Shown here: positions 370-7,386 of the stretch, piece after piece
Layout: each line of letters begins with the position of its first letter
Position numbering within the stretch: position 1 is the stretch's first letter
Assembly (NCBI GenBank): GCA_030620115.1
Contig: JAUXFG010000174.1
Span: 1 to 7,539 of the forward strand
Direction of reading: 5' to 3'
Length of the DNA: 7,539 bases
Source of the DNA: Candidatus Fermentibacterota bacterium
GTDB lineage: Bacteria > JAFGKV01
Program-made: the position numbers and the translations under genes
Notes under the pieces: model-generated
What the model was told of the DNA's origin: nothing
The model's input: only the letters and a program-made list of their open reading frames with translations
Database searches by the model: none

Positions 370-1137
370 ATGAAACGAATTCTGCAGAGCTTACGTAGTG
401 GCGAGACTGAAGTCGCCGATGTTCCTGTCACGGCCTGTGGCCGAGGCATGCTGAAGATGCGAACATGTGAAGCCTTGATTTCTGCGGGTACCAACCGCAT
501 GCTGGTGGTGTTTTCCAAGGGCGGATTTTGGGCGAAGCCCATCTGCATCCAAGATAGACCAATCCAGTGCAAAGGTATTCATGAGACAAGACACCACGCA
601 ATGCCCATCTTGCTTGAAGTGCTTCTCGAATCCAGCCATGACAGTTCAATAGCTCATTGATCAGGGCGAGTTCGATCTGCTGCCCGCGCTTCGTGAACTG
701 TTGCTCAACGCCGTAGTGCATCCGGAATACACGAGCCCGGTTGATACTCAAATCAAGATATTCGATACTTCGATCACCTTTTTCAACCCCGGCAGGCTCT
801 TTGGAGGGCTGACAGTCGAAGCGCTCAAGAGTGACAACTATCAGTCTCGAACACGCAATAAACTCATTGCCGAAGCCTTCTATCTGACCCGTGATATCGA
901 GAAATATGGAAGCGGTTTCATAATGTCGGTCTATTGCCCCAAGACGGTAACGAGGGAATAAGTGAGGAAATACACCGGCTGCTTGAGACCATAAGGCATG
1001 CGCCGGGAAGGCGGATACCCCAACTCGCGGACTCCCTAGGAGTTCCAGCAAAAACAGTCGAACGTTGGATTGCCACCCTGAAGAAGCGGAAGCGCGTCGA
1101 ATATCGTGGCAGCAAGAGGACGGGCGAATATACGTGA
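370..1137 (+). pseudogene. Degraded AlbA/HATPase_c_4/winged-helix transcriptional regulator (COG2865-like)
   Basis: Three pieces in two frames follow the domain order of COG2865-type regulators. (1) From the ATG at 370 (frame 1), the reading MKRILQSLRSGETEV resembles the start of a Schlafen-AlbA_2 domain, with a weak SAGTN...VVFSKGG match near 480-525. (2) From about 662 to 930 (frame 2) there is a well-preserved HATPase_c_4 segment: ALRELLLNAVVHPEY (the E..NA..H..Y box), FNPGRLFGGLT, RNKLIAEAF and IEKYGSGF. (3) From about 940 to 1137 (frame 1) there is a C-terminal winged helix (IPQLADSLGVPAKTVERWI, then a KRKRVEYRG wing), ending in TGATGA. A TAG at 650-652 closes frame 2 just before the ATPase piece. 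About 250 codons remain where the family, from memory, usually has about 450-550, so the regions between AlbA and the ATPase and between the ATPase and the HTH are largely deleted. The ATPase and HTH assignments are firm; the AlbA piece is tentative. Confidence 0.75.
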
Positions 1138-1653: not shown

Positions 1654-1677
1654 TAGCTCCAGGTGAGCTTGGAGCTA
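1654..1677 (+). promoter_or_regulatory. Inverted repeat enclosing the antitoxin start codon
   Basis: TAGCTCCA (1654-1661) and TGGAGCTA (1670-1677) are perfect 8-base complements. In RNA a G-U pair (1662/1669) would extend the stem to nine pairs, leaving a six-base loop that holds the GTG start codon (1663-1665). It could be a translational hairpin or a dimeric operator bound by the antitoxin itself; both are inference. The left arm also contains the in-frame TAG that closes the reading frame upstream. Confidence 0.45.
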
Positions 1678-1914
1678 CCACGCGATTTGCTTGGGGCACT
1701 TGACATCCCGGAGGGTCGGCTACAAAGCCGAGTAAGAGAATTGATTGCTCTGGAATTGCTTCGGGAAGGGCATATCTCATCCGGCAAGGCCGCAGAGTTG
1801 TTAGGTATCTCTAAGGGGGAGTTTGTGCTTCTGATGGCGCAACATGATGTTCCCTACTTCACGGAGTCACCCGATGAATTGGCTGCCGAGGTTGCGACCA
1901 TACTCCTGTCCTGA
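1663..1914 (+). CDS. UPF0175 family protein, probable antitoxin without its toxin
   Basis: This 83-residue protein has the UPF0175 (PF03683) plan. An N-terminal strand (VSLELPRDLL if the GTG is read as Val) is followed by a helix with RVRELIALELLREG at about 23-36, then the family's hallmark ISSGKAAELLGISKGEF helix-turn-helix (about 38-52) and a C-terminal DELAAEVATILL tail (70-82). UPF0175 proteins are small DNA-binding antitoxins usually encoded just before a PIN-like DUF3368 toxin. Here the bases after the TGA at 1912-1914 encode no such protein; repeat DNA begins within about 35 bases. The GTG at 1663 is the only available start, because an in-frame TAG lies at 1654. There is no clear ribosome-binding site, and the start sits in an inverted repeat. 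The coding region is full length for the family and uninterrupted. It may still be expressed, or be a relic that has lost its partner. Confidence 0.82.
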   Translation: MSLELPRDLLGALDIPEGRLQSRVRELIALELLREGHISSGKAAELLGISKGEFVLLMAQHDVPYFTESPDELAAEVATILLS

Positions 1915-2165: not shown

Positions 2166-2822
2166 CTACTTGATTATTCCTAACCAATCCCTGAGCAGGA
2201 AGTCCATGCGGCCGATGAGGAGAGAGATCCTGGCCATGGCGGTGAAGCCGAAGGTGGCGCCGAAACCGATCATCAGAGTCCAGATGCCCACCTTTGCAAC
2301 CGAGCCCACTGCTCCTTTGTGAGCTTTCGAGAAAAAGAAGTAGGTGAGGCCGCTCAATACGCCGATGACCACCAGCAGGCTGTTGAATCCATCCCATGTC
2401 CCCACGGTTTTGAGATCGATGATGCTGGCCTGAAGCTGCCGGATCACCTTGGTCTGCAGCGAGAGGGGAATCACAAAACCGGCGCCTATCCCCCAGATGA
2501 TGGCGATGGGAATGCGTGCCAGCCAGGAGTAGCGGGTAGAGAATCTGGTGAATATCAGAATCCCCAAGAATGCCGCGATTACCAGAAGGAACAAGCCCAA
2601 AGGCCCTGGAATGACATTCCAGTTCCGTTCCCTGAAAAGCGGAATCACGAAGTATGGCACCAATGTCTGTCTGATCAGAATGACCAACCAGTACCCCGCG
2701 GAAACACCCACCACCAGATGCTCGGCGATACGATAGAATAGGTTGTCCTTGTAGAGAAATGAGAAGATACAGAGGGTAAGAAACGCAGCCAACCAGACAC
2801 CCGGATCCACAGAGAGTGCCAT
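2166..2822 (-). CDS. Six-TM membrane protein, fourth gene of the FN3/DUF6754 module
   Basis: This 218-residue protein is almost entirely hydrophobic, with probable TM helices at about 7-23, 34-51, 74-92, 102-121, 145-163 and 174-196. Between the first two helices is the stretch FLYKDNLFYRIAEHLVVGVSAGYW (about 22-45, described in two parts: YKDN-FY, then AEHLVVGVSAGYW), which looks like a conserved core. I recall similar proteins annotated as hypothetical in uncultured-bacterium genomes, but cannot cite a family. I chose the ATG at 2822-2820, not the longer frame starting at 2918. It overlaps the TAA of the preceding gene by one base (TAATG), and an AGAAGGA ribosome-binding site lies nine bases upstream. 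The extra 32 residues of the longer frame are an out-of-frame reading of the neighbour. It closes the four-gene unit; the C-terminus is short, basic and probably cytoplasmic. The function is unknown. Confidence 0.85.
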   Translation of the reverse strand: MALSVDPGVWLAAFLTLCIFSFLYKDNLFYRIAEHLVVGVSAGYWLVILIRQTLVPYFVIPLFRERNWNVIPGPLGLFLLVIAAFLGILIFTRFSTRYSWLARIPIAIIWGIGAGFVIPLSLQTKVIRQLQASIIDLKTVGTWDGFNSLLVVIGVLSGLTYFFFSKAHKGAVGSVAKVGIWTLMIGFGATFGFTAMARISLLIGRMDFLLRDWLGIIK

Positions 2823-3646
2823 TAGCTCTGATCCTTCTTGCCGGCCATGAACGCGATATTCCCGATGATGATAAGAACCACGATGAGCAGATGACAGATG
2901 GATTGTATATTCATCCAAATGGTGGCACGTTCGCCTTCGCCCAGAAGGGTCTCATATTCAGCGGCACCCTTGAGCCCACCGAGTATGCCCACGATCTGGC
3001 CTGATTGCAGGTAGTTGTAGTAGTCCGCCGCCATGACGGCAGTGACGCCAATGGCGAGCGGGAAGTTGTACCGCTCCTTGCCATACATGATCCACGCATC
3101 GACACCGCTGGTGGCATTGACCGAAAGCACGAACTTGAAGTCCCGGTAATTCTTCACGTTCCGGAAGATGGGGAGACTGTCGAGCCGTGTGCCGTAGTAG
3201 TCAATGGGAAATGACTGCCGAATGTCTTGACCCATAGAGAGGATCACCGCGGCGGGATAGGGCCTATAGCCGAGGTAGCCATAGTCCCTCCCATATTCCA
3301 TGCCTCGCTCCTCGGCAACTGTTCTGATCTCGGATTCGATGAGGCTGACGCCTGTTGCCGCAAGGCACATGCATATGAGGCGCGCGCCGCGCCGATGGGC
3401 ATGCCGCATGATGGCGTAGGTCATGGGCTCGAGTTCCGCCATGGTATCGGGGCCGTAATCCATGTCCAACAAGAAAAGATCGCCGGGCTGGAGACTCTCT
3501 ACCAAATCGAATACCTTCTTTGACTCGGGTGTCACCTTGACGGAAAGCTTGGCGGGGAAAAGCAGCGGGATGATCACTGCAACAGCCATGAGGAGAAAAA
3601 TCACACGCCGATCAAGCTGTGACACCTTCGCCAGGAATCCCCTCAT
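2822..3646 (-). CDS. Two-TM protein with a large Rossmann-like middle domain, third gene of the module
   Basis: The protein has 274 residues. A basic N-terminus is followed by one TM helix (about 14-32), a soluble domain (about 40-245) and a C-terminal TM helix (about 250-268) ending GKKDQS. The soluble domain begins with strand-helix-strand units (GDLFLLDMD at 55-63, then a helix to about 88, then RLICMCLA). It continues with PYPAAV (129-134), NFPLAIG (194-200), GQIVG (216-220) and GAAEYETLLGEG (227-238). The same motif order occurs in the first gene of the operon, so the two soluble domains may be homologous. Topology is ambiguous because both sides of the first TM are equally basic. The start is ATG, one base after the preceding TAG, with a GGGAG ribosome-binding site six to seven bases upstream. 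The stop overlaps the next start. I recognise no catalytic motif, and the function is unknown. Confidence 0.85.
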   Translation of the reverse strand: MRGFLAKVSQLDRRVIFLLMAVAVIIPLLFPAKLSVKVTPESKKVFDLVESLQPGDLFLLDMDYGPDTMAELEPMTYAIMRHAHRRGARLICMCLAATGVSLIESEIRTVAEERGMEYGRDYGYLGYRPYPAAVILSMGQDIRQSFPIDYYGTRLDSLPIFRNVKNYRDFKFVLSVNATSGVDAWIMYGKERYNFPLAIGVTAVMAADYYNYLQSGQIVGILGGLKGAAEYETLLGEGERATIWMNIQSICHLLIVVLIIIGNIAFMAGKKDQS

Positions 3647-3647
3647 G

Positions 3648-4271
3648 CTACTCTCCCGCCATGTAGCTTCGCTCGATGCCCAACATGACCCGGAGCGCCA
3701 TGCTCGCCTCTCCTAATCCCACGCCGATGAGGATGGCGCGCTTTGCCGCCACATTGGGCACGTTCAGGAGCCAGTCCGCGATGGCCGGAAACAACCCATG
3801 GCTCATTCGATCGCCCAAGGGAACCCTCCCCAACATCACGAAAACCGCGGCAAGCAACAGGATCGTGGCAATGGCGGATCGTGCCCGGAAGGCCCGGAAT
3901 GCCGCGGATGCGATAAAGAACGCCAGAAGGCTGAACATGGTTGCTGATATGGGATTCAGGATGTGGTCATAGAGCCACTCGTACGATCCCCGCTGCTCCA
4001 GTGCCGGGATGAGGCCTGCCGCCACCATGGCGAACAAACCACCCAAAGTAATGAAGCTGTACTGCCATTGCCGCTGGCGATGCCGGATCTTTCTCACATG
4101 CATCGTCACGAGACTGGTGATGCCAAGAAAGATGGAGAAAACGCCTATGATCTGAAGCCATATGTTCGAAACTTCATAGATCTGCTCGAACGACCGATGT
4201 GGCACGAAATACTGAACCGTCAATAGGAATGCACAGATGAACGTCAGAAAAACGGGGAGCTGCTTTTTCAT
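3648..4271 (-). CDS. Six-TM membrane protein, second gene of the module
   Basis: This 207-residue integral membrane protein has probable helices at about 5-22, 37-55, 71-90, 105-125, 133-150 and 178-198. A strongly basic loop (VRKIRHRQRQWQ, 59-70) should be cytoplasmic by the positive-inside rule. The loop between helices five and six (GRVPLGDRMSHGLFPAIADW) and the last helix (RAILIGVGLGEASMALRVM) look like the conserved parts. The ATG at 4271-4269 overlaps the TGA of the preceding gene as ATGA. No purine ribosome-binding site precedes it (the upstream bases are pyrimidine-rich), so it should depend on translational coupling to the first gene. One base separates its TAG from the next start. 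It has no recognised family; by context it is a membrane subunit of the same complex as its neighbours. Confidence 0.85.
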   Translation of the reverse strand: MKKQLPVFLTFICAFLLTVQYFVPHRSFEQIYEVSNIWLQIIGVFSIFLGITSLVTMHVRKIRHRQRQWQYSFITLGGLFAMVAAGLIPALEQRGSYEWLYDHILNPISATMFSLLAFFIASAAFRAFRARSAIATILLLAAVFVMLGRVPLGDRMSHGLFPAIADWLLNVPNVAAKRAILIGVGLGEASMALRVMLGIERSYMAGE

Positions 4272-5398
4272 AGTCTGATGGAAAGGAGTTTGGTCACGAT
4301 ATCGCTGCCGAATGTGGTTGCGATGATCCCGAGAAGAAGTACCAAAACAATGATGAGCTTCGCGATATCCTGTCCCTTGAGTGTGCCTAACTGCAATGGA
4401 TCCTTGGAGAGGTAGGCGCTGGCGGCATAGAGTTCCTCTCCCATGAGCGTGTAGTCACAGGCGGCCACAAAGAAGGGTATTTGGGTCAACTCATCCGTGC
4501 CGGCGATCTGCATGGATCCCGCTTGGAAGCCGGTCTCCGCCAGAATCAAGGACTCCGCGTAGAATTTCCCCAGGTAGAAATTGGTCGCGGGCTTCTCCCT
4601 GAGCATAAGGCCATTCACCGCCGCAGTGAATGGAAATTGCTCTGAGGTGACATAGAAGATGTCTTTCTCGTCATACGCGTCCGGCCGGCCCGCATTCAAA
4701 TATGCTGATTTGACGACTTCTTGGGCGATTATCATGACCGTGGCGTAGACATTCGGCACTACCAATCTCGTCTGGTACTCCGCGGTCCTCTGGGCGACGC
4801 GTCCCAGTATGGTAAAGGCCGCGATGGTAGCGACTTCCGATGCCTCGGATATGCCGGGGATGAACAGAATAGGCCGCCCCATTTCCGTGGCACGGCCGAT
4901 GGCCTCATCAACGGCATCAATCCCGGCAATGGGGCGTACATACAGCTCACGCCCCTCTCGTGCCCTCTGGATCATGAGAAGCACCAGGAAGGAGAACGCC
5001 ACCGCGAAAACAAGGACCACGGTTTTCCCCGTATGGAACCATTGCCCTTCCGGCACAACGGGGCCTGCAACAGGATACTCGAAATCACCTGACTCTATCC
5101 GCGCAATGATCTTGTAGTAGTATGGGGTGCCGTTCGTCAGATCCTCGCACGCATCGACATACTCATGCGCTTCTCCCTTGAGAACCGCAGTACTCTCAAA
5201 TGGGCCTATGGAACTAATGGAACGAAAGAGATTGAATTGATCAACATGCGTGCCAGGCCCAGGATTGGTCCACGACAGGGTGATGCTTTTTCCGTGATCA
5301 TTGGGTGTATCGGCGGCGGTGAGGGTCTGCCCATACGCGCCACGAGGCAGCGACAAGGCAAAGAGAAGAGGGCCAAGGTATAGCCAGCTACGCAGCAC
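4268..5398 (-). CDS. Signal-peptide/FN3/membrane-anchored protein, probable DUF6754 family; first gene of the module
   Basis: The protein has 376 residues. A signal peptide (about 1-23, ending GAYG before Q24) is followed by a fibronectin type III-like domain (about 25-115; cues are GKSITLSW and NGTPYYYKIIA). Next come a TM helix (about 125-143) with RAREGRE directly after it, a large domain (about 150-342) and a C-terminal TM helix (about 346-363). The charge after the first TM puts the large domain in the cytoplasm and the FN3 domain outside. The VRPIAGIDAVDEAIGRATE stretch and the overall plan match what I recall as DUF6754, a family of unknown function. Motifs in the large domain are RPILFIPG (175-182), FPFTAAV (255-261), NFYLGKF (273-279), SMQIAG (295-300) and AACDYTLMGEEL (312-323). 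The start is GTG with AGGAG six bases upstream. It overlaps the next gene by ATGA. The gene model is firm; the family name is from memory, and the function is unknown. Confidence 0.85.
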   Translation of the reverse strand: MLRSWLYLGPLLFALSLPRGAYGQTLTAADTPNDHGKSITLSWTNPGPGTHVDQFNLFRSISSIGPFESTAVLKGEAHEYVDACEDLTNGTPYYYKIIARIESGDFEYPVAGPVVPEGQWFHTGKTVVLVFAVAFSFLVLLMIQRAREGRELYVRPIAGIDAVDEAIGRATEMGRPILFIPGISEASEVATIAAFTILGRVAQRTAEYQTRLVVPNVYATVMIIAQEVVKSAYLNAGRPDAYDEKDIFYVTSEQFPFTAAVNGLMLREKPATNFYLGKFYAESLILAETGFQAGSMQIAGTDELTQIPFFVAACDYTLMGEELYAASAYLSKDPLQLGTLKGQDIAKLIIVLVLLLGIIATTFGSDIVTKLLSIRL

Positions 5399-5457: not shown

Positions 5458-5543
5458 CTCCCTCCACCTGATGTTGGTCACGACACCGGGCTCCGGTCGT
5501 CAGCCCCATCAGCCCCAGATTCCTTTCCCTCCCTCCTTCCCAC

Positions 5544-5643
5544 AGATTCTTCAGTCACTCTGCTCCCTCAGAATGACATGTCTCTTCACGTCCAATGCCA
5601 ACCACGCCTGTCATTCTGAGCGAATGCAGGGAGCGAAGAATCT
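5544..5643 (-). repeat. 100-bp palindromic repeat, copy 2 (inverted)
   Basis: Read on the minus strand it matches 1299-1398 in 91 of 100 bases with no gap, including the non-palindromic centre GGTTGGCATTGGACGTGAAG. Differences fall mainly in the arms. The outermost bases still pair (AGATTCTTC with GAAGAATCT), and the minus-strand 3' flank is G-rich as in copy 1. It sits about 145 bp upstream of the start of the four-gene operon. Confidence 0.85.
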
Positions 5644-5717
5644 CTCTTCTCTTCAGCATTCCCTGAATTCGAAATTCCCCCGCCCATTCACCCAATCGCT
5701 CACTCATCAGCATCAGC

Positions 5718-5751: not shown

Positions 5752-5792
5752 TTTCGACGTTGAATGTTGAGTGTTGGATGTTCGACATTCAA
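5752..5792 (-). repeat. TTGAATGT/ACATTCAA repeat overlapping the VanZ stop
   Basis: The minus strand reads as variants of one word (CATTGAATGTCGAACATCCAACACTCAACATTCAACGTCGAA type, here 5792-5752). The ends TTGAATGT and ACATTCAA form an 8-base perfect stem with a 17-base loop. The TGA of the VanZ gene (5791-5789) lies inside the first arm. Repeats of this word type are, from memory, common between genes in many bacterial genomes. Confidence 0.5.
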
Positions 5793-6190
5793 TCCCCTTC
5801 CTCCCTCCACCTTCTCACTCGAATCAATAGAGAGAAAACCATGAGTCCTGCGCAGGCGCCCAGGCCATTGGCTACCATATCGCCCCAGCTGAAGTATCGG
5901 TCACCCGGGAGAAAGAGCATCTGGAGTGCCTCCATGAGCGTGCCGTACACGAAGCATCCGGAGAAAACCGTTCCCCCGGAGAATCTGGTGATAACGACGG
6001 CTCCCATGGCCCACATGACAAGAATGGCAAGGATGCCATACATGCCGAAATGAACGATCTTGTCACTCAAAGGAAGGTTCAGACCGCCAAGCATTGAGGT
6101 CATGGACTTGGACGGCAGGAGGGAGCACAGGGTAATTCCCACTGTGTACAGACCACAGACGAGCCATCGTTTCCAGTTGCAGACAGTCAT
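5789..6190 (-). CDS. VanZ-like family membrane protein
   Basis: This 133-residue protein has about four TM helices (about 8-25, 44-62, 71-90 and 106-124) and the VanZ-like (PF04892) pattern. It shows SDKIVHFGMYGILA (42-55, with D43 and H47), then YGTLMEALQMLFLPGDRYFSWGDMVANGLGA in two parts: E87 and Q90 in the helix, then D97-R98, D104 and N108. VanZ of the Tn1546 cluster gives low-level teicoplanin resistance, but most VanZ-like proteins are chromosomal and uncharacterised, often near polysaccharide or exosortase genes, so resistance should not be inferred. The ATG lies five bases after the TAA of the nucleotidyltransferase gene. The only purine motif, AGGA, touches the ATG, so translation is probably coupled. 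The basic tail (RVRRWREEGD) ends at a stop supplied by a dispersed repeat, so the native C-terminus may have been slightly altered. Confidence 0.88.
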   Translation of the reverse strand: MTVCNWKRWLVCGLYTVGITLCSLLPSKSMTSMLGGLNLPLSDKIVHFGMYGILAILVMWAMGAVVITRFSGGTVFSGCFVYGTLMEALQMLFLPGDRYFSWGDMVANGLGACAGLMVFSLLIRVRRWREEGD

Positions 6191-6195
6191 TCCTA

Positions 6196-7386
6196 TTAGC
6201 GTGCCTTCTTCTGACGCGAGGATTGCCAGAGGTACTGGAGGAACTTGAGGCTCGCACGCACGAGCCGTACCACGCGATAGAGGGGGAAGAGCGGCTCAGG
6301 CAGGAAAAGCAGCCTGATATCATACGGACCGGGACTGAAGGGAAGTTGAAGGCAGAGGCCAAGCCTATCGCGAAATCTCTCGAGGACCCGGAAGTGGAGG
6401 AACCCCATACCCACAAGACCGGCCGCCCCCTCGTTTCGCCAGAGAAACCTTTTCTGAACCTTTCCGGCAAGCGATTGGACTCCTGGATAGGCTCGTGCTT
6501 GTTGCATGACCTCCTCCGGAAGATCGGCCTCCAGAAGATCCCTGGCAAGGACAAGCCCAATGAAAAGTATCCTTCTTTTGCCTGCTTTTGCCGCACGGGC
6601 AATGATCATGCCCCAATTGACTGGTTGATTGGCTCGAATCACCGCTGCAATGTCGCGAACCAGGTAGAGACTCTGCCAACAGTCCACCCCCGCCTTCATG
6701 CAGGTATAGAGGAGCAGGTCATCACGCGAGAGTGTCTCCAGCTTCCAGCCTTCCCAATTCTGCGTTCGAGAATGCTTCCATACACCTTGAGAGCCATGGT
6801 CAAAAGAGAAATAGCTGGGCAAAAGCTTCCAGTGGATATCAAAATGCAGGACGCTGGATGTGGATGAGAAATCGCGCTCACCTCTGAATTTGACGAGTGC
6901 CGTTTCCTGAGTGTCAGTCAATTGAACGTGCGGATAGATGTTGTTTGCGACCAGCAATTTGCTCAATTCGTGGAGATCGCAACAGTGAATGAGAATGTCC
7001 AGATCAGTCGATTGTCGAAGACGAAGATCGCTGTGGATGGTTTCAGCGAACATCGGCCCTTTGAGCGAGATGGCGGGAATCCCCTTGAGCTTGAGGATGT
7101 CCAGCAATCTGACCAGGATCGCCACCTGACTCAGGTTATATTGTGCATTGGCCTCATGAAGGCTCTGAAGCCGATTCATGACATCATGCGGAACATCCAG
7201 AGATGCAGCCCGCAAGTTCAAATATAGAAACGGCATCATCCGATGTGGAGCGGCCAACCTCAGCACGCAATCCCAGTCTATACCCTGAGCGATGAGAGAT
7301 CTGATACGAATCTCGGTCGCTTCATCCATTCTGGCTCGCGCACAGCAAAGCAAGAGTTCTCGTTCAGGGTGTTTGGTTTTTTCCAA
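6196..7386 (-). CDS. Family-5 uncharacterised nucleotidyltransferase (NTP_transf_5)
   Basis: This 396-residue soluble protein has the plan of NTP_transf_5 (PF14907). An N-terminal helical region carries LIAQGIDWDCVLRLAAPHRMMPFLYLNL in two parts (31-58). Then come ISLKGPMFAETIH (106-118, LKG motif), RLRQSTDLDILI (122-133, with the catalytic-type D128 and D130 pair) and LHFDIHW (180-186, candidate third carboxylate D183). A C-terminal helical part contains LSRDDLLLYTCMKAG. The family belongs to the polymerase-beta superfamily and often occurs in polysaccharide or exosortase-type loci; the substrate is unknown. The start is TTG at 7386. A stop lies two codons upstream in frame, an AGGA lies nine bases upstream, and homology-like sequence begins before the first internal Met (residue 21), so the TTG is preferred over the ATG at 7326. 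The gene is followed after five bases by the VanZ-like gene. Length and key residues look intact. Confidence 0.9.
   Translation of the reverse strand: MEKTKHPERELLLCCARARMDEATEIRIRSLIAQGIDWDCVLRLAAPHRMMPFLYLNLRAASLDVPHDVMNRLQSLHEANAQYNLSQVAILVRLLDILKLKGIPAISLKGPMFAETIHSDLRLRQSTDLDILIHCCDLHELSKLLVANNIYPHVQLTDTQETALVKFRGERDFSSTSSVLHFDIHWKLLPSYFSFDHGSQGVWKHSRTQNWEGWKLETLSRDDLLLYTCMKAGVDCWQSLYLVRDIAAVIRANQPVNWGMIIARAAKAGKRRILFIGLVLARDLLEADLPEEVMQQARAYPGVQSLAGKVQKRFLWRNEGAAGLVGMGFLHFRVLERFRDRLGLCLQLPFSPGPYDIRLLFLPEPLFPLYRVVRLVRASLKFLQYLWQSSRQKKAR

Follow-up and report, generated by a model that had tools for sequence, protein, structure and literature searches.

A widespread four-gene membrane cassette linked with a MutL-type ATPase set, possibly a shared-ATPase membrane machine

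MutL homologues are accessory proteins of B12-dependent mutases, and in group II energy-coupling factor (ECF) transporters a shared energising module serves many substrate subunits. Here we describe a cassette of four genes, A to D, in a stretch of 7,539 nt that we call the window (contig JAUXFG010000174.1 of assembly GCA_030620115.1), from a Candidatus Fermentibacterota bacterium whose genome is labelled G000. G000 contains about seven such cassettes. The cassette is linked with a cytosolic set comprising a MutL-type ATPase and two further proteins, S133 and H373. Together they look like a molecular machine that is widespread and yet, it seems, undescribed. With a probability of roughly 0.4, we read the seven genes (S133, MutL-like ASKHA ATPase, H373, A, B, C, D) as one system, in which ABCD would be the membrane half of a machine with a shared ATPase. 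More tentatively, this may be an ATP-driven membrane machine of a new class, in which a single ASKHA-type ATPase module would power several interchangeable four-protein membrane complexes. Such a machine would be universal in one candidate phylum or more, would occur in many, and would have stayed undescribed because its carriers are nearly all uncultured.

The ABCD cassette and its spread

The cassette comprises the following features.

4268 to 5398, minus strand: gene A, 376 aa from a GTG start; signal peptide, extracytoplasmic FN3 domain, transmembrane (TM) helix, cytoplasmic DUF6754 domain and C-terminal TM helix, predicted from the PF20539 match, the FN3 profile and fold, AlphaFold2 and the positive-inside rule
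5042 to 5329, minus strand: FN3 domain of A (residues 24-119), a fold match by VIA-align
4286 to 5050, minus strand: DUF6754 region of A with its two flanking TM helices; six beta-alpha units, invariant residues at strand ends
3648 to 4271, minus strand: gene B, 207 aa, about six predicted TM helices, both termini inside, invariant R126; matches no family
2822 to 3646, minus strand: gene C, 274 aa, two TM helices and a predicted extracytoplasmic Rossmann-like domain; invariant H252 and N263 in the second TM helix; matches no family
2927 to 3535, minus strand: Rossmann-like domain of C (residues 38-240), from the AlphaFold2 model (predicted local distance difference test, pLDDT, 95) and fold matches
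2166 to 2822, minus strand: gene D, 218 aa, about six predicted TM helices, N terminus probably outside; invariant N27, E34 and R198; matches no family

An earlier, sequence-only reading of this DNA had described four minus-strand genes joined by an ATGA overlap, a 1-base gap and a TAATG overlap, the second gene lacking a ribosome-binding site, and the sequence bears this out. ATGA is common to the A stop and the B start (4268-4271), a single base (3647) lies between the TAG stop of B and the ATG of C at 3646, and TAATG is common to the TAA stop of C and the start of D. A longer, mechanically assigned open reading frame (ORF) start for D was rejected in favour of the ATG at 2822, which gives 218 aa. 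Purine-rich Shine-Dalgarno-like stretches precede A (aggag), C (gggagag) and D (aagga); none precedes B, where the upstream sequence reads ctcctttccatcagact and then ATG. Synthesis of B would depend on translation of A, and all four proteins would be made together. Orthologous cassettes from a sister genus (loci L044 and L049) show 68-80% protein identity, a ratio of nonsynonymous to synonymous substitution (dN/dS) of 0.08-0.16 and changes mostly at third codon positions, and the three junctions of L049 are identical to those of the window, base for base. The four genes are therefore not chance ORFs; judged by these comparisons, purifying selection acts on them and their coupling is maintained.

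Protein A had been read as FN3 plus a DUF6754-like region, and both parts were recovered. It belongs to PF20539 (DUF6754), which it matches with E=2.4e-119 and 397.6 bits against a cut-off of 27, over model positions 2-256 of 257. The FN3 domain gave a single-sequence Pfam match below the cut-off, a profile match to titin (E=8e-28) and an FN3 fold (VIA-align Z of about 12 to FN3 domains, root-mean-square deviation (rmsd) 1.9 over 85 residues). It is missing from some Planctomycetota relatives, which begin at the TM helix (L157, L164, L165), while Cloacimonadota proteins of 950-1005 aa in total (L143:5379-8396, L144:5652-8504) have an enlarged extracytoplasmic part with apparently several FN3-like repeats. 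A has three hydrophobic segments, and in its AlphaFold2 model (pLDDT 93) a six-unit beta-alpha domain is set between two TM helices. Column-averaged hydropathy and charge over 78 sequences, read with the positive-inside rule, place FN3 outside and the DUF6754 domain inside. The invariant residues R155, R169, E172, Q254, R267, E282, E288, Q297, Q306, D315, E321, E322, D344 and K347 lie in the model largely at C-terminal ends of the parallel strands, where such folds usually bind ligands.

For B, C and D, neither single sequences nor sets of 61-85 relatives matched any curated Pfam or NCBIfam family, and C had no significant match among PDB sequences, as a single sequence or as a profile. Weak Pfam matches of B (TMD0_ABC in 9 of 76 sequences, DUF998 and others) were scattered and below cut-off, and were discarded. 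The C model (pLDDT 95) has a six-unit beta-alpha domain flanked by two TM helices, and column-averaged hydropathy and charge predict that the domain is outside with both ends inside; a good part of its invariant residues (E71, D149, Q217, E232, H252, N263) lies at C-terminal strand ends. Hydropathy predicts about six TM helices in both B (N terminus inside) and D (N terminus outside). The proteins thus agree with the earlier description of B and D as six-TM proteins and of C as two TM helices plus a large domain, here of about 200 aa. Although the A and C domains are both arranged as TM-(beta-alpha)6-TM, their predicted orientations are opposite and no profile signal links them, and homology was rejected; it was likewise rejected for B and D, which share no profile signal.

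DUF6754 is a catalogued family without a function, and B, C and D belong to no catalogued family. No paper found in a search of the open-access literature, which leaves most subscription papers outside its reach, names DUF6754 or PF20539; a large survey of unknown gene families of uncultivated taxa (PMC10849945) may list members without a function. The sequence-only reading could name no function for any subunit, and our searches likewise matched none of them to a named transporter or secretion system.

We scanned 84,980 species genomes, obtained at least 473 relatives and kept 79 loci for gene-order reading. These span more than ten phyla, including Zixibacteria, WOR-3, Eisenbacteria, Fermentibacteria, Cloacimonadota, Latescibacterota, Poribacteria, Planctomycetota, Edwardsbacteria and Coatesbacteria. 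The homologues are not scattered: the order A-B-C-D is present in 73 of the 79, contig ends truncate five, and a single locus, L053, has only A. Two or three cassettes are present in 19 loci. G000 has seven DUF6754 (A) genes and seven C genes, a relative's genome six of each, and a less complete relative four A and three C; one of the seven G000 cassettes is divided between two contigs, A being apart from B-C-D, as it is in the sister genus. Genomes carry one to seven copies. DUF6754 occurs in 132/132 sampled Zixibacteria genomes, most often in five copies, and in 91/343 Planctomycetota genomes; 14 well-known control genomes had none. When A, B, C and D were compared over 131 complete cassettes, their pairwise distances showed correlations of 0.67-0.81, the pattern that joint inheritance of the four genes would produce. 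The G000 cassettes tend to be as similar to relatives outside their own phylum as to each other, or more so, and hence are old specialised classes and not recent copies. A mobile or phage origin was rejected, since no match was found in plasmids or phages, as was an anti-phage defence system, since no PADLOC model matched A to D.

A cytosolic partner set

The commonest neighbours of the cassette, which in about 21 of the 79 loci, from several phyla, stand immediately before A, are genes for S133, a small protein, for a MutL-type protein, and for H373, a 373-aa protein with a barrel-sandwich domain like those of RnfC, NqrA and lipoyl proteins. Among the Planctomycetota loci read, S133-MutL-H373-A-B-C-D is a common arrangement. 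The MutL-type protein, of about 600 aa, is a member of the PF13941 family of ASKHA ATPases (E=1e-125; 420.5 and 428.9 bits against a cut-off of 27), and we take it from its family to be an ATPase. It matches NF040745 (GlmL) with E=5e-67, but at 226.6 and 221.9 bits it falls short of the equivalog cut-off of 475. Literature searches that combined MutL/GlmL with Planctomycetes or ATPase found nothing. G000 also encodes, separately from its two-gene set, a 985-aa fusion of a MutL-type ATPase and a barrel-sandwich domain (L141:7131-10088, minus strand), and similar long frames exist in other genomes.

H373 was found in 31 of 34 ABCD genomes, mostly as one full-length copy, compared with one to seven cassettes. 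Among 343 Planctomycetota genomes, 82 have both DUF6754 and H373, nine DUF6754 only, two H373 only and 250 neither (Fisher p=6e-66, with related genomes taken as independent). A single-copy ATPase set beside several membrane cassettes suggests a shared driver for interchangeable membrane units. Walker A is not conserved in the cassette proteins (among 131 cassettes it was seen in no B, no D, one C and five A), so ATP hydrolysis would need a partner.

Proposed mechanism and alternatives

We propose that A, B, C and D form one cytoplasmic-membrane complex with B and D as its membrane core. A would offer a ligand-binding domain to the cytoplasm and its FN3 domain to the outside, and C would offer a second ligand-binding domain outside. 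MutL, with H373 and S133, may constitute a single cytosolic ATPase module. Docked on the DUF6754 domain, this module would spend ATP on driving or resetting any ABCD complex present in the cell. Different cassettes could then serve different substrates or signals, as the group II ECF energising module serves many substrate subunits. Most likely, the complex would move or relay a small molecule through the membrane, between the inner pocket of A and the outer pocket of C, both conserved. We infer complex formation, docking, ATP use and transport from gene order, copy number, partner co-occurrence and the predicted folds and topology; the earlier suggestion of one membrane complex, with no function assigned, gains support from the conserved order of the four genes, from the equal numbers of A and C in two genomes, and from the lack of a match to a named system.

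Several points weigh against this proposal. The TM counts of B and D come from hydropathy. The cytosolic set is not adjacent to the cassette within the window. DUF6754 occurs without a detectable H373 in the nine Planctomycetota genomes and in three others, possibly because of incomplete assemblies, and the Fisher test counts related genomes as independent. Finally, MutL homologues are known as accessories of B12-dependent mutases and not as transport ATPases.

This last point leads to the main rival, a role in maturation or reactivation, which is equally natural given the MutL family and which we hold possible, if on the unlikely side. MutL-H373 would be an ATP-driven activator or a cofactor-loading chaperone, and ABCD would be membrane enzymes or carriers that need MutL-H373 and are not run by ATP. 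GlmL/MutL relatives, which the ATPase resembles at the NF040745 level given above, accompany B12-dependent mutases, and the barrel-sandwich domain of H373 is of the kind found in RnfC, NqrA and lipoyl proteins. In G000 the partner set (contig C105) follows gcvT, gcvH, gcvP and a lipoyl ligase gene, and nine further loci have a gcvP homologue upstream. However, the linked set showed no gene for a B12 enzyme, any cofactor on H373 is presumed, and the gcv link is absent from the Planctomycetota loci read.

Ligand-type domains are predicted on both membrane faces, as they would be in a sensor or signalling complex in which C or FN3 binds an outside ligand and the signal passes through B and D, altering the inner DUF6754 domain and then the cytosolic partners. 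The lineage-variable outer part of A, with its several FN3-like repeats in Cloacimonadota (L143, L144) and its absence in some Planctomycetota, would fit such a role. We nevertheless consider it unlikely: the cassette has no kinase, cyclase, methyl-accepting or DNA-binding domain, no output-domain fusions were seen, and the near-invariant inner domain is more like that of an enzyme or transporter.

The folds themselves could suggest a membrane-bound nucleotide-cofactor enzyme, redox or transhydrogenase-like, with NAD(P) or flavin bound by its DUF6754 and C domains. The inner domain of A, thinly covered by a PDB fold comparison whose list was dominated by FN3 matches, aligned with the Sir2 chain 1ma3 at a moderate Z of 10.8 (144 residues, rmsd 3.8, 10% identity). 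C matched folds at Z 8-10, among them 1kjn (MT0777, Z 10.0), the CODH/ACS epsilon subunit (9c0s_C, Z 9.3 over 144 residues, about equalled by other Rossmann families), RCK domains and transhydrogenase domain III, the last three at Z 8-9. As models, both domains show by these Z values a Rossmann-like arrangement, and no function; such folds are common and the values only moderate. Moreover, no profile matches any nucleotide-cofactor family, conserved Cys pairs that could hold Fe-S clusters are absent, as is a flavinylation motif, and the predicted outside position of the C domain puts it where NAD(P) is unavailable. We regard this reading as quite improbable.

We think it very improbable that the cassette assists an energy machine of the rotary or Ton/Exb type. 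Of the two links, one is a cassette lying between the subunit C (AC39) and subunit F genes of a V/A-type ATPase operon (three genomes: L150, L152 and L153; Pfam-checked in L150 only), the other a MotA/ExbB gene after the cassette in WOR-3 (L149); each is limited to few lineages and to one of several cassettes. In L150, L152 and L153 the V/A-ATPase-operon cassette is followed by two roadblock-like proteins, recognised by eye and without a Pfam match, on which we do not rely.

The ABCD system is probably central to the cells that carry it: it is present in all sampled Zixibacteria, usually at about five copies, in many candidate phyla and in a quarter of the sampled Planctomycetota. Its co-occurrence with the single-copy ATPase set supplies a concrete list of partners. 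A culturable host may exist, since the whole operon is found in several single-contig Planctomycetota genomes.

Flanking sequence and known systems

The cassette lies between two copies of a 119-nt palindromic repeat (1298-1416 and 5526-5644, 86% alike), which has inverted arms of 35 nt and whose two copies are inverted relative to each other. Further copies lie on other G000 contigs (L011, L141) and in no fetched locus of other genomes; it looks like a short non-autonomous mobile element. A RecG-like/HATPase_c_4 fragment (701-961, plus strand, around 1-1140; PF13749, E=4e-14), with no long intact frame nearby, is probably a decayed gene. It is followed by a gene for a UPF0175 family protein (1663-1914, plus strand, E=1e-17), a family often of antitoxins. 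The VanZ-like and NTP_transf_5 (PF14907) genes upstream of the cassette (5789-7386, minus strand) were rejected as partners, being absent beside the orthologue L049, and are probably unrelated to it.

The system resembles Rnf/Nqr pumps in having a barrel-sandwich protein, two six-TM proteins and an anchored outer domain. Membership was rejected: PF02508 matched 1 of 76 B (E=0.0056, below cut-off) and 0 of 61 D, no Cys column is conserved in B and none beyond 39% in D, and the flavinylation motif occurs in 0 of 131 C proteins. With GlmL/MutL the relation is one of family, the linked ATPase being a clear PF13941 member. It differs in scoring below the GlmL and Or-4 equivalog cut-offs, in its longer C terminus and in its linkage to a membrane cassette instead of mutase genes. 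From group II ECF transporters the system differs in having no ABC ATPase and no homology, and no P-loop ATPase was found in the cassette; the logic is alike, by analogy only, in that a single-copy ATPase set is paired with several membrane units.

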